Position numbers and translations under genes: made by a program. Shown piece by piece: positions 11,142 through 26,686 of a stretch of 37,819 nt of DNA (position 1 is the stretch's first letter; each line of letters opens with the position of its first letter). The notes under the pieces are model-generated. The model was not told the DNA's origin. It was given only the letters and a program-made list of their open reading frames with translations, and ran no database searches. The DNA is from Pirellula sp. Its GTDB lineage: Bacteria > Planctomycetota > Planctomycetia > Pirellulales > Pirellulaceae. The stretch is from NCBI GenBank assembly GCA_025459355.1, contig JALOQS010000007.1, positions 1 through 37,819 on the forward strand, in the 5' to 3' direction.

Positions 11142-11981
11142 GTGTTACGGAATATGTTATCCCGCAGACGATTTCTAATGGGTAGCGCGTCCACTGCGGG
11201 CCTATCGTTGTTGGGCTGGACTTACTTTGTCGAGCCTCGGTGGCTGGAGATAACTCAAAGCGAGTTACTGGTTCCGAATTTGCCCGACAGCTGGGCAGGA
11301 AAACGATTGCTTCACATCAGTGATTTGCATGCGGGCAAAGTCACCACCAGTTACTTGCAAAAAGCCATTCGAATCGTCAATGAACTGGATGCGGATCTGC
11401 ACGCATTTACCGGTGATTTCATCGATCAAACGGGGGGCATTGAAGAACTTAAAAAAGTGCTGCATGATTACCGCCCGGCCAAACTGGGCTCGTTCGCTTG
11501 TTTGGGAAACCACGATTACGGGCAGGGTTGGTGGCAGGTCGAAGTGGCTGATCAAGTCACTGAGGTCGTAAGCCAGCGAGGCGTGGAGGTCCTGCGGAAT
11601 TCCCGATTCGAACGTGATGGTCTGCATTTCCTCGGGATTGACGATATGTGGTCGCCGAGATTTCAACCTACGGAATCTTTACAAGACTGGGATGCCGCTA
11701 ATGCCAGTCTTTGTTTGTGCCACAACCCAGACGTCTGCGATCTCCCCATTTGGGAAAATTTTCGAGGAGCAATTCTTTCTGGGCATACGCACGGTGGTCA
11801 GTGCAAGCCACCTTTTCTGCCCCCACCAATCTTGCCCGTGAGGAATCGACGATACACATCGGGGGCCTTTTCTTTGGACGCGACCCGCTCGCTCTACATA
11901 TCGCGAGGTGTAGGCCATTCGATGCGAGTTCGATTCAATTGCAGGCCGGAGATCGCGGTACTGACGCTAAAGCCATCTTAG
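11142..11981 (+). CDS. Tat-signal metallophosphoesterase (YkuE-like)
   Basis: 'SRRRFLMGSASTAGLSLLGW' twin-arginine signal; 'LLHISDLHAGK..FTGDFID..CLGNHDYG..LSGHTHGGQ'. GTG start preceded by AAGGAAG. Confidence 0.92.
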   Translation: MLRNMLSRRRFLMGSASTAGLSLLGWTYFVEPRWLEITQSELLVPNLPDSWAGKRLLHISDLHAGKVTTSYLQKAIRIVNELDADLHAFTGDFIDQTGGIEELKKVLHDYRPAKLGSFACLGNHDYGQGWWQVEVADQVTEVVSQRGVEVLRNSRFERDGLHFLGIDDMWSPRFQPTESLQDWDAANASLCLCHNPDVCDLPIWENFRGAILSGHTHGGQCKPPFLPPPILPVRNRRYTSGAFSLDATRSLYISRGVGHSMRVRFNCRPEIAVLTLKPS

Positions 11982-13315
11982 TTCTTTTGCGGAACAATGA
12001 CTTCTGGCTTTAAGGACTCGACTTGGATGTAGGCTGGGATGCTCGCTGGCACCGCGGGTTGGGAGGCTGTGCTTTGAGAGAGTTGATCTGTTGCTGATTC
12101 GGCACCGTTTGCAACAATCTTGGAATCATTCCAGAGCTCCGTGATATCCACCTCCAGAGTTCTTAGCATGTCGAAGACCACTGGCTGAAGGTCTTTGACG
12201 TTATAGGCCAAACTAACGACTCGACCGCCGCGAGCAATGTTGAGGCCGACAAAGTTTCCATCGATATCAACAATTGGCCCCCCGCATTGATGGGGCAGCA
12301 ACACCGTATCGTGTTGCATGACATTCTTAAAACCGGTGGCTCTCGAACTGATCTCGCCGTTGACTTCCATTTCGGTGCTGTCAAAGAGTGAGCTGGTGAG
12401 ATCCATCATCTGAGCTCGGAACGTCATCTTGCGACCATCTCGATCACATGTCAGTGTGGCGTGTTGACCAGCTGTGATCGACCTTAAGTGATCAAGAACG
12501 CGAGCTCGATTGGGGAGTTCAACTCCGTCGACGGCTTTAATGACATCACCCACCTGAACTCCGGCGCGATCCGCACCGCCGCCATCGACCACACTTTCGA
12601 TTAAAGCCCCATTTTGACCTGCCGGGGCCTCACCCAATCGAAGTCCGAGAACGGGTCGCTCAGAAGGAACGTTTCGTTTCGTAACGCTCAAAACGCCGAC
12701 ATTAAGAGGAGTCGATCGAATATTGGTACTTACTAGCCATCCACCCAGTGGCACATCGACCTTGGGATTGAGAACGACTGGTTGCAAACCTTCTCGTTCG
12801 ATCTTGAGAATAGCTAAATCAAGATCTACTTTTCTTAGAACGGTCGATCCGATGGCTTTGGTGCCATCGAACAATTTGACTTCGCATTGATCAGGGACTT
12901 CACTCGATTTGGAAACAATCCAACCGCCGGAATGAACGATGGCTCCCAACGCAACTTGACGATTCCCGTTCAAGATCTGAACGGTCGATTTCCACGCATT
13001 GCCTACTGAATCGCGAAATGCTCTGAGGGTTTGGTAGTGGGTTTTGGTATGACCGCGACCACTAAGCACTCCCACTTGATCGCCAACACTGTACCCCTGT
13101 TGAACCAACAACGATTTACCGGATGACTCGTTTGAATGACTTTGCGAGGCATCGTCATCCGTTGCAAGCGTTGAGCCAGAACCCTCTGCCGAGTAACTAA
13201 CCAATGTAACAGCTGGGTTAAAATCCGATGGGTCAGAAGGTCTTACATGACAGACACAAAACGAAATCAAGGCCGAGGCCAAAGCAACGCGAGCATGTCG
13301 GTTAATCCGTTTCAT
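11978..13315 (-). CDS. Degenerate HtrA/trypsin-like protein (predicted pseudoprotease) with an internal PDZ domain
   Basis: ORF track begins at a TTG (13342); ATG (MKRINRHARVALASAL) at 13315 is more likely. Trypsin-like blocks 'ALGAIVHSGGWIVSKSSEV', 'DLDLAILKIE', 'DTVLLPHQCGGPIVDIDGNFVGLNIA'; PDZ 'GALIESVVDGGGADRAGVQVGDVIKAVDGVEL' lies between them. Confidence 0.85.
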   Translation of the reverse strand: MKRINRHARVALASALISFCVCHVRPSDPSDFNPAVTLVSYSAEGSGSTLATDDDASQSHSNESSGKSLLVQQGYSVGDQVGVLSGRGHTKTHYQTLRAFRDSVGNAWKSTVQILNGNRQVALGAIVHSGGWIVSKSSEVPDQCEVKLFDGTKAIGSTVLRKVDLDLAILKIEREGLQPVVLNPKVDVPLGGWLVSTNIRSTPLNVGVLSVTKRNVPSERPVLGLRLGEAPAGQNGALIESVVDGGGADRAGVQVGDVIKAVDGVELPNRARVLDHLRSITAGQHATLTCDRDGRKMTFRAQMMDLTSSLFDSTEMEVNGEISSRATGFKNVMQHDTVLLPHQCGGPIVDIDGNFVGLNIARGGRVVSLAYNVKDLQPVVFDMLRTLEVDITELWNDSKIVANGAESATDQLSQSTASQPAVPASIPAYIQVESLKPEVIVPQKN

Positions 13316-13567: not shown

Positions 13568-14740
13568 CTAATTTTTGGAGCCGATGATCATTCGAAGACG
13601 CATTCTTTTCGAGTCTCTTTCGATCTCAACCCACACCGAGTCACCAGGCACCATTGAATCCACTGCGTCCTTGAGTTGTTGGAATCTAGTGATCTCGTTT
13701 CCATCAAATTTCACGACGACGTCACCGGATCTCATCCCCGCACGAAAGGCAGGAGTGTCTCGCCCCACTTCTTGAATCAAGCACCTACCGTTGCTGTCTT
13801 CATCACGAGCCCCGGCGACTCCGATAAATGGCTGAAAACCTGGCAAAGCACCCCAAACCTCACGACTGATCAACCGTTCGTGGTTGTTGTAAAAAACCTC
13901 GATTGGTACGTGCATGTTTTCTTCAACATCGACACCAATGCGGCTGTGAATGCCGATCAGCTTACCTTCCAAATCAAAGAGTGGACCGCCACTATCGCCA
14001 CCGATAAGTGGGCAATCCGTAACCATGGTCGAGTCAATCATTTTTAGCACCCGCCCCACCCGAATCACAGCAGGGCGATCCGACTGCCAACCGCCAGGAT
14101 GTCCGACTGCGATCACCCACGATCCGTTTCGTAAATCGTTAGATCGCCCCAAGCTCGCGTGAGGCCATGGCTGCTTTGGGTCACTGAGCGGTGTCGTAAT
14201 CTTTACAACTCCTGCATCCTCGTTTCGGTTCAACCCCAAGGATTCCCCGTCAACCCTCGTTCCGTCATGAAGCGTGATTTGAATTCGTTGCGAAGCCTTT
14301 CCAGCGACGTGTGCTGCGGTCAAGATGTAACCATCTCCGCTCACGATTACGCCACTCCCCTGAGTGTTACCGTGCTGCAGATTGACCGTGACCAAGGGCA
14401 ATAGCTTGGATAAACTCGCCTGTTGCTTTTGAAGAATCACAAGCTCGTTTTTGTCGCGTGGATCAGCACCCAAGGCGAGCGACCTCAATGCGTCTGGCAA
14501 CGGAATCTTGGTCGTGGCCGATGGACTGTCTACTATCGTGGAGAAATAACTGGCTACTGCTGGCTTGGCTGAGGTTCTCGACTGCGATTGCCCCTCGCCA
14601 AGACGCTCCTGACCCAATACGGTGTTCGTTGAAAGCGCGAATGCGAGAACCGACGTGAAACAAAAGAGAGCTATCACTGCGGTATTACGGAATGTGGCTA
14701 TGAGGCGGGATGGGCAATCACCATACTTCCTAGCTATCAT
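13568..14740 (-). CDS. HtrA/Deg-like serine protease with C-terminal PDZ domain
   Basis: Complete triad motifs: 'GSGVIVSGDGYILTAAHVAG', 'NRNEDAGVVKI', 'GGDSGGPLFDLEGKLIGIHS'; PDZ 'RCLIQEVGRDTPAFRAGMRSGDVVVKFDGNEI'. Confidence 0.93.
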   Translation of the reverse strand: MIARKYGDCPSRLIATFRNTAVIALFCFTSVLAFALSTNTVLGQERLGEGQSQSRTSAKPAVASYFSTIVDSPSATTKIPLPDALRSLALGADPRDKNELVILQKQQASLSKLLPLVTVNLQHGNTQGSGVIVSGDGYILTAAHVAGKASQRIQITLHDGTRVDGESLGLNRNEDAGVVKITTPLSDPKQPWPHASLGRSNDLRNGSWVIAVGHPGGWQSDRPAVIRVGRVLKMIDSTMVTDCPLIGGDSGGPLFDLEGKLIGIHSRIGVDVEENMHVPIEVFYNNHERLISREVWGALPGFQPFIGVAGARDEDSNGRCLIQEVGRDTPAFRAGMRSGDVVVKFDGNEITRFQQLKDAVDSMVPGDSVWVEIERDSKRMRLRMIIGSKN

Positions 14741-24604: not shown

Positions 24605-26686
24605 TTAGTCGCTAACCATCGCGACCGACTCAACGGTTGTATCTCGAGAAATCTCGTTGTAGCTCAGAATTTTGGCCAGCGGCAGATTTTCGCTTGTCAT
24701 TTGCCGCAGCGGAATGCGAATTTTGGGACTGACCAAAACGCATAGAGGCCGACTTTGTTGCTCCAGTTTTCTGAGTTGATCGGCAATTTTTTGGCACGTC
24801 TTATTCACGACATCAGGAGACATTCTTAAAAACACGCCACGATCGGTTTGTTCTGCCCCCGCTGCGATTCGATCTTCGACAGCTGGATCGAGCGTAACCA
24901 CTTTTAACACCCCGTTTGAATCCCGGAATCGGTGGGATATCGTTCGAGCCAATCGATGGCGGACATATTCCGTAAGCCAAATCGGATCTTTGACACGATG
25001 GGCAAAGTCGCCAAGCGTTTCGAGAATGAGACCGAGTTGCCTGATGGGGATATCTTCTTTGAGTAGGTTTTGGAGAACTTGTTGAACTTCGGACAGTTTC
25101 ATAAGTCCAGGTATCAATTCTTCGACAACGGTCGGTGTTGTCTTCTTCAATTGATCCACCAACTGTTTCGTCACCTCACGAGTGAGTAATTCTTCTGCAT
25201 GGCGTCGCGCTGTTTCCTGGACATGCGTTGCGACCACGGCTCCGCATTCAGCCACTTGGTAGCCATAGATCTCCGCATGTTGTCGCCGACTCGGATCGAT
25301 CCAAAATGCTCGTTTCCCGAACGCGGGATCAGTCGTTTCTTCCCCTTCGATTGGTCCCAAGGTGAGTCCCGTATCGATCGCTAAGAGTCTATCCGTGCGA
25401 ACCATTCCCGTCGCAATCCGGTTTCCGTTTAAGGAAAGCTCGTACGAGTACTCTGGTAAACTCATACGATCTTTAATTCGAACCATCGGCAGCAGGATCC
25501 CCATCTCGCTCGCTAAGGTGGCGCGGACGGTAGAGATTCTCTTCATCAAATCACCACCGCGATTGGGATCTGCCAAAGCGATGAGTTTCGCTCCTAACTC
25601 CAATCTCATAGGATCGACTTCGAGATAATCTTCGGCCTTCTTTTCGGCAGGTGCTTCTTTCTTAGCGGAGGCTTCGGTTTGCTTCTTCTGCTTCTCTTCC
25701 TGTGCAACTTGTTGTTTGGTTTGCTTGGTCATCATGATAGCGAGACCGATGCAGCCTAATCCCATAGTTAGTAACGGCATGGTCGGAAGTGCCGTAAAGA
25801 TTAATAGGAGCAAGAAGCCTCCGGAGATAAAAAGAGCTTCCGGCTTAGAAAAGATCTGCTTCAGAAATTCGCCTGAGAAGTTGCTACTCTGGGCGCTTCG
25901 AGTTGTTAAAAGCGCGGCTGCTAACGAGATGAGAAATGCGGGAACTTGACTAACCAGACCGTCACCGATCGTGAGCTTGGAGTAGATCGATGCAGCTTCA
26001 CTCAGTGAGAGACCCGCATACATGTAGCCCATGTAGAGTCCGCCAAAGAGATTGATAAAGGTGATGGCTATACCTGCGATCGCATCTCCTCGAACAAACT
26101 TCGATGCACCGTCCATGGCTCCATAAAAATCCGCTTGGCGCGAGACCTCTTCACGGCGGCGTTGGGCTTCCTTTTCGTCAATGGCTCCCGCGCTGAGATC
26201 TGCGTCGATGGCCATCTGTTTGCCGGGCATACCATCCAATGCGAACCGCGCAGCCACTTCACCAATACGTGATGCTCCCTTGGTGATTACGATAAAGTTG
26301 ATTAAGAATATGATAACGAAGAGAATGATACCTACTTCGAGCGAATCTCCAGAAACGAATTCACCGAATGCTCGTATCACCCCACCGGCAGCTTCCAGTC
26401 CTTCGTCTCCTGTTTTGGTCAAAATCAAACGTGTCGTCGCCAAATTAAGAACCAGTCGAGACAATGTCGTCGCGACCAGCATGGCCGGGAATATATTGAA
26501 CTCCATCGGCGTTTTGGCATAAATGGTCGTGAGAAGAACGACGACTCCAATTGCGATATTGGCCGAGAGCAGGATATCCAGCAGCGTCGGCGGCAGCGGT
26601 ACCAGAATCACCGCCAAACATGCAATAATTCCTAGCGGAAGAATCGCATCTTTGTAGTTCTGCCATACTCGCATCCATCCGCTCAT
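24605..26686 (-). CDS. flhA: Flagellar biosynthesis/type III export protein FlhA
   Basis: FHIPEP block 'ITKGASRIGEVAARFALDGMPGKQMAIDADLSAG'; N-terminal TM bundle; C-terminal 'LRMSPDVVNKTCQKIADQL'. Confidence 0.95.
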   Translation of the reverse strand: MSGWMRVWQNYKDAILPLGIIACLAVILVPLPPTLLDILLSANIAIGVVVLLTTIYAKTPMEFNIFPAMLVATTLSRLVLNLATTRLILTKTGDEGLEAAGGVIRAFGEFVSGDSLEVGIILFVIIFLINFIVITKGASRIGEVAARFALDGMPGKQMAIDADLSAGAIDEKEAQRRREEVSRQADFYGAMDGASKFVRGDAIAGIAITFINLFGGLYMGYMYAGLSLSEAASIYSKLTIGDGLVSQVPAFLISLAAALLTTRSAQSSNFSGEFLKQIFSKPEALFISGGFLLLLIFTALPTMPLLTMGLGCIGLAIMMTKQTKQQVAQEEKQKKQTEASAKKEAPAEKKAEDYLEVDPMRLELGAKLIALADPNRGGDLMKRISTVRATLASEMGILLPMVRIKDRMSLPEYSYELSLNGNRIATGMVRTDRLLAIDTGLTLGPIEGEETTDPAFGKRAFWIDPSRRQHAEIYGYQVAECGAVVATHVQETARRHAEELLTREVTKQLVDQLKKTTPTVVEELIPGLMKLSEVQQVLQNLLKEDIPIRQLGLILETLGDFAHRVKDPIWLTEYVRHRLARTISHRFRDSNGVLKVVTLDPAVEDRIAAGAEQTDRGVFLRMSPDVVNKTCQKIADQLRKLEQQSRPLCVLVSPKIRIPLRQMTSENLPLAKILSYNEISRDTTVESVAMVSD

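Follow-up and report, generated by a model that had tools for sequence, protein, structure and literature searches.

An HtrA-like pseudoprotease with a PDZ domain nested in its protease fold, and its genomic association with an active HtrA in Planctomycetota

We identified a gene, P0001 (11978..13315, minus strand; 445 aa, ATG at 13315), in a 37,819-nucleotide stretch of DNA from Pirellula sp. (hereafter the window) that encodes a protein whose chymotrypsin fold is interrupted by a PDZ domain. This interruption is a conserved feature of the family. P0001 has the HtrA (S1C) fold and, judged by its residues, a dismantled active site, which makes it a pseudoprotease. A gene for an intact HtrA-like protease, P0002, lies beside it, and adjacency, fusion and co-occurrence across genomes strongly support a genomic dependence of the nested module on the one clade of active HtrAs to which P0002 belongs. 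Because the module is retained across the phylum together with this particular HtrA, P0001 is probably a non-catalytic subunit that would sense signals and activate P0002 in trans.

Results

A PDZ domain inside the protease fold

P0001 begins with a predicted hydrophobic export segment (residues 10-24) and a spacer, extending to residue 87, that has low confidence in the AlphaFold2 model. The first part of the protease domain (approximately residues 108-222; 12650..12994, minus strand) was delimited using Pfam, a family profile and AlphaFold2, and consists of barrel 1 and the first two strands of barrel 2. The PDZ domain (residues 223-300; 12416..12649, minus strand), located by the same three approaches, is nested in loop L3. 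It is followed by a conserved S-x-R-x-x-G-F linker and the second part of the protease domain (together residues 301-386; 12158..12415, minus strand; profile and AlphaFold2), which supplies the rest of the barrel-2 strands and the C-terminal helix and contains the QHD and HQCGGP blocks. The disordered C-terminal tail (11978-12090 of the window) ends in a VE(A/S)LKPEV-x-x-P-like motif that is conserved among relatives of the same genus though the surrounding tail varies. The motif is possibly a docking peptide.

The original prediction, made from the DNA sequence alone, was that the trypsin-like blocks are split with a PDZ domain nested between them, and Pfam, a profile match in three pieces and a confident AlphaFold2 model all agree with it. 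Pfam returns a single Trypsin_2 match above the cut-off over residues 130-357, and the PDZ_2 match (223-300) falls within it. The family profile A1, built from 52 relatives of P0001, was aligned to HtrA chains in the PDB and matches the DegP-like chain 22kg as 55-158 on 94-201, 269-323 on 205-264, and 158-257 (the PDZ domain) on 269-376. From the order of these pieces, the PDZ domain stands in place of 22kg residues 202-204, which is loop L3, and the insertion falls directly ahead of the conserved IQTD strand. In the AlphaFold2 model pLDDT is mostly 92-98 across residues 101-300 and 321-390, and the strand order runs from barrel 2 (193-196, 205-214) through the PDZ domain (225-302) to the remaining strands (332-335, 347-349, 355-362, 368-372). 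Neither the profile alignment nor the model places the PDZ domain outside a complete fold, and the HQCGGP block, taken in the original prediction to be the serine loop, does align with the serine loop of DegP-like chains. Foldseek matches the model to DegQ, DegS, MucD, HtrA2 and a mycobacterial HtrA (E ~1e-14 to 1e-12), with DegQ, DegS and HtrA2 among the best. TM-scores are low, about 0.2-0.36, because the chain order differs from that of the targets and the model includes a disordered portion of approximately 100 residues; here the E-values and targets are informative and the TM-scores are not.

Nesting is common to all 81 relatives examined, and these form one clade, so the layout is not a product of chance. 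The number of nested PDZ domains varies, with one, two and four found in 90, 4 and 1 of 95 modules, respectively, and the site is identical throughout. A 1146-aa fusion (L159:3244-6681) carries four tandem PDZ domains nested in the pseudoprotease, and a 962-aa fusion (L156:4747-7632) carries two at the same L3 site as the others. On the chains with two and with four nested PDZ domains Pfam identifies four and five PDZ domains, respectively, those outside the nest included. The degenerate catalytic residues described below might be expected of a decaying pseudogene, or of a misassembled gene that mimics an inverted domain order. However, all 81 modules, from 19 sampled families and a single clade, share the layout, open frames and invariant residues. 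This conservation already refutes such a reading, to which we attach next to no probability.

Loss of the catalytic residues

By alignment, the position of the catalytic histidine (His57) is occupied in P0001 by Ser138 (12902..12904, minus strand) and that of the catalytic serine (Ser195) by Cys344 (TGC, 12284..12286, minus strand), and the catalytic aspartate (Asp102) is kept as Asp166 (12818..12820, minus strand). All three had been read correctly in the original prediction. We counted the residues at these positions in the 81 nested modules extracted from fetched loci. Histidine does not occur at position 57 in any of them (Ser 78, Thr 2, Asp 1), and the aspartate is present in 81/81. The Ser195 position is Cys in 72, Met in 3, Val and Ile in 2 each, and Thr and Leu in 1 each. 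Position 193, which provides the oxyanion Gly193, is Gly in one module and another residue in the remaining 80. The protein had been called a degenerate HtrA, and the loss of His57 from every module and of Gly193 from 80/81 bears this out. As regards the conservation of its unusual features among homologues, the PDZ insertion is constant (81/81) and the change of His to Ser nearly so (78/81), whereas the change of Ser to Cys holds in 72 and fails in nine.

Two further residues are well conserved near the former active site. Lys136 (12908..12910, minus strand), two residues ahead of the lost His57, is Lys in all 81 modules by alignment, and Asp166, likewise invariant, might be its pairing partner. 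In the QHD block, His335 (12311-12313, minus strand) aligns with His in 72/81 and is retained by most modules that lost the Cys. The nine modules without Cys keep most of the neighboring motif and, for the most part, the residues assigned below to sensing, with the L3 Arg present in six and the QHD His in eight.

A changed, Cys-based chemistry had also been suggested for this protein. P0001 would then be a cysteine peptidase with Cys344 in the role of Ser195 and either His335 or Lys136 as the base instead of His57, and the strong conservation of the Cys (72/81), the QHD His (72/81), the Lys (81/81) and the Asp (81/81) is consistent with such an enzyme. However, nine modules have Met, Val, Ile, Leu or Thr where the Cys would be and still keep most of the remaining motif, with the QHD His among the retained residues in eight. 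Non-Gly residues occupy position 193 in 80/81, and for the pseudoprotease MamO it has been argued that no oxyanion hole can form with such a residue (PMC4794232). The nested module is also always accompanied by an intact protease. With His57 absent from every module as well, catalysis by Cys344 is very unlikely. A catalytic Cys would not give way to Met, Val, Ile or Leu. For this reason, and because position 193 is non-Gly in all but one module, we call the family pseudoproteases. The non-proteolytic regulatory or binding role that was offered alongside the Cys chemistry appears to fit.

The family shows the sequence features expected of an HtrA-derived pseudoprotease, namely a clade-wide loss of catalytic residues on a homologous fold (81/81 without His57, in one clade). 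As to membership in S1C itself, P0001 has the Trypsin_2 fold and lacks both the His-Asp-Ser triad and the Gly193 oxyanion hole. The PDZ domain of S1C proteins follows the whole protease domain; here all modules examined have it within L3. The curated HtrA models (NCBIfam TIGR02037 and others) are not reached by P0001, which scores 65 bits where the cut-off is 416.

An active HtrA partner

The gene P0002 (13568..14740, minus strand; 390 aa), recognized by Pfam and alignment as an intact HtrA-like protease, adjoins P0001 upstream on the same strand with a 252-bp spacer, and its own PDZ domain is in the usual C-terminal place. Alignment identifies catalytic His144 (14309..14311), Asp175 (14216..14218) and Ser250 within GGDSGGP (13991..13993), all on the minus strand, and His-Asp-Ser is retained in 73/74 partners. 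The partner clade has a recognizable signature: GHPGG in the LD region, an invariant R-x-G ahead of a shortened L3, GGDSGGPLFD, and GIHS. It is set apart from ordinary HtrAs by approximately 100 bits in the genomes checked. The intact HtrA next to P0001 had been seen in the original prediction; that it is a constant partner of the nested protein had gone unrecognized. Scans for promoters and terminators gave nothing above chance, and co-transcription across the 252-bp gap is at most a possibility. Elsewhere in the window a FHIPEP (FlhA-type) gene (24605-26686, E 1.1e-242) lies among unrelated genes, and a PSCyt2/PSD1 (DUF1549/DUF1553) gene is also present, which would suggest a host of planctomycete type.

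The same-strand partner is immediately upstream of 50 of the 81 nested modules, and in another 24 the two are fused, the module making up the C-terminal half. Seven modules are neither adjacent nor fused by our cut-off. One of these, L066, is a fusion that scores under the cut-off, and the genomes of the remaining six have a partner-clade gene elsewhere (216-243 bits, with the next HtrA at 115 or less). In 21/36 fusions the active protease runs into the nested module with no PDZ domain in between, and the nested PDZ domain is therefore the sole one.

L066 is a paralogue from the same genome as P0001 (contig C81, L066:2344-5952, 1203 aa). It consists of a kinase domain, a membrane helix (410-428), two trypsin domains, of which the first is degenerate and the second has its His, Asp and Ser, and a nested module with Cys. 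The kinase domain is of the Ser/Thr type, with the motifs HRDIKPAN and DFG. From this order of domains, L066 reads as a receptor-like kinase with a protease/pseudoprotease pair as its probable ectodomain.

The full-length nested arrangement was found in most genomes of the same genus and in many families of the order in a search of 60 relatives. In an even sample of 392 genomes across the phylum, the module occurs in 71 genomes with 19 family codes, counting matches at E ~1e-35 or better; a raw tally of 277 includes plain PDZ matches. The partner profile A3 was run on the same 392 genomes with a cut of E 1e-43 or better, placed at a score gap after inspection. A strong partner is present in 67 genomes, all 67 of which have the nested module, and these account for 67 of the 71 module genomes. 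Of the other four, three show a weaker partner match, and the fourth is a genome of 55% completeness. Shared ancestry is not corrected for in the Fisher test of this co-occurrence (p = 2.5e-71). A tree computed from 218 columns with a quick method groups the nested sequences in one clade and the partner sequences in another (SH-aLRT 99), and three ordinary HtrAs from the genome of P0001 fall outside both.

Among 198 Bacteroidota genomes none has the nested module at E 1e-25, thus there is no sign of it in that phylum in this sample. A single-sequence scan of genome contigs with P0001 found only PDZ matches, in Winogradskyella, and a plasmid collection gave no match to the protein. In a defence-system library P0001 is unmatched, and P0002 has weak matches only within its protease domain.

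Relay residues and a putative two-chain mechanism

In ordinary HtrA proteases, signals from the PDZ domain are relayed through loop L3, the very loop into which the PDZ domain of P0001 is inserted. The effects of PDZ ligands run both in cis and in trans in these proteins (PMC11642142; PMC5666011). Across ordinary HtrAs the L3 of a subunit influences the LD loop of its neighbor, and work on HtrA1 describes this effect between monomers via the equivalent Arg302 (PMC5666011). In P0001 the profile alignment places Arg214 (12674..12676, minus strand), just ahead of the insert, on the Arg of the L3 activation cluster (DegS Arg178 / DegP Arg187), and Gln334 (12314..12316, minus strand), past the insert, on the Gln of the cluster (DegS Gln191 / DegP Gln200; PMC11642142 numbering). 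These residues, which flank the PDZ domain, are Arg and Gln in 63/81 nested modules each, and at the equivalent positions of the partner clade the Arg is found in 7/74 and the Gln in 12/74. Three ordinary HtrAs in the same genome, whose sequences were read by eye, retain both.

We propose that the protease folds of P0001 and P0002 would come together as the subunits of an HtrA trimer do. The nested PDZ domain would bind a ligand, either a protein C-terminus or an unfolded-protein signal, and this binding would shift the L3 of the pseudo-subunit. This loop would in turn drive the active-site loops of the neighboring catalytic subunit, so that proteolysis is turned on, or is held off in the unliganded state. 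Sensing and cutting would thus be divided between two specialized chains, the pseudo-subunit and its partner. A model of a fused protein (pTM 0.73) would allow its two halves to pack together. The LD loop of the partner (GHPGG) departs from the HtrA consensus, and on the receiving end the partner may therefore deviate from the classical relay. The fuller version of this proposal is more tentative than the sensor role itself: the partner may have given up the L3 Arg and the Gln of its own relay from the PDZ domain to the active site, and this relay would be supplied in trans by a pseudo-HtrA whose L3 carries between one and four PDZ domains, in free and fused pairs and in receptor-kinase fusions.

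Judged from sequence, P0001 may control P0002 either by activation or by inhibition. A dedicated inhibitor, locking the partner until released by PDZ ligands, would be expected to show the same adjacency, fusion and co-occurrence as an activator, and in unliganded DegS the PDZ domain and L3 are autoinhibitory (PMC11642142). However, the L3 Arg and the cluster Gln, which are retained, are residues that stabilize the active state, yet Arg178 also takes part in inhibitory contacts. Overall we consider an inhibitor unlikely, at perhaps a third of the weight given to the activator. It is also conceivable, and we think less probable still, that P0001 is an adaptor for substrate delivery or a holding chaperone whose PDZ domains gather clients and leave the conformation of the partner unchanged. 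One, two or four PDZ domains at one site resemble a tunable binding array, and in 21/36 fusions no other PDZ domain is present, as an adaptor might have it. However, such a role leaves both the choice of L3 as the insertion site and the retention of the L3 Arg and the cluster Gln unexplained. A sensor and activator subunit is the reading we prefer.

Discussion

Signaling from the PDZ domain to the active site has been studied in HtrA proteins mainly in homotrimers. Each subunit there is both sensor and cutter, and effects in cis and in trans are consequently hard to separate. Evolution seems to have divided these roles in the pair described here, in which the chain with a PDZ domain in the relay loop is predicted not to cut and the cutting chain is mostly without the relay residues. 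If the proposal is true, the pair would be a natural system for the direct measurement of trans-activation. It would also represent a widespread envelope-protease module, with a receptor-like kinase version included, in bacteria whose stress sensing is poorly known.

Comparison with known systems

The closest structural relatives of P0001 are the HtrA/Deg proteases (MEROPS S1C: DegP, DegQ, DegS, HtrA1-3), which share its chymotrypsin fold and type of PDZ domain and are its best PDB matches by both profile and fold. In contrast to them, P0001 has the PDZ domain inside the fold at L3 rather than after it, has lost the His, the Ser and Gly193, and always has an active partner. A regulatory PDZ domain inserted in the protease domain is known from the S41 proteases Prc/Tsp and CtpB (PMC6686036). 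However, their fold is structurally unrelated to that of HtrA and they are catalytically active (PMC6686036). P0001 was rejected as an S41 protease, its protease parts matching Trypsin_2 and not S41. The plant proteins Deg5 and Deg8 are likewise specialized HtrAs in one compartment, and the PDZ status of Deg5 is unusual (PMC3640471). Unlike P0001, Deg5 has no PDZ domain and no nesting and keeps the triad, though no protease activity was detected (PMC3640471).

In its mode of action P0001 may be most like MamO, without being MamO itself. MamO is a pseudoprotease required for proteolysis by MamE and resembles P0001 in being a degenerate HtrA with a non-Gly residue at position 193 that is encoded with an active HtrA, MamE (PMC4794232). 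It differs in that it keeps the His and Asp, has Thr for the Ser, binds metal, has no nested PDZ domain described, and carries a TauE transporter domain that is needed for MamE activation (PMC4794232). Assignment of P0001 to the MamO family was rejected, since the match to NCBIfam NF040961 is weak: it covers 40 residues at E 8.6e-5 and scores 21 bits, where the cut-off is 800. We found no description of a PDZ domain nested in an HtrA fold in the open-access papers searched. An HtrA-derived pseudoprotease with an active partner is of a known kind, whereas the nested architecture with one to four PDZ domains and the pairing across a whole phylum appear to be new.
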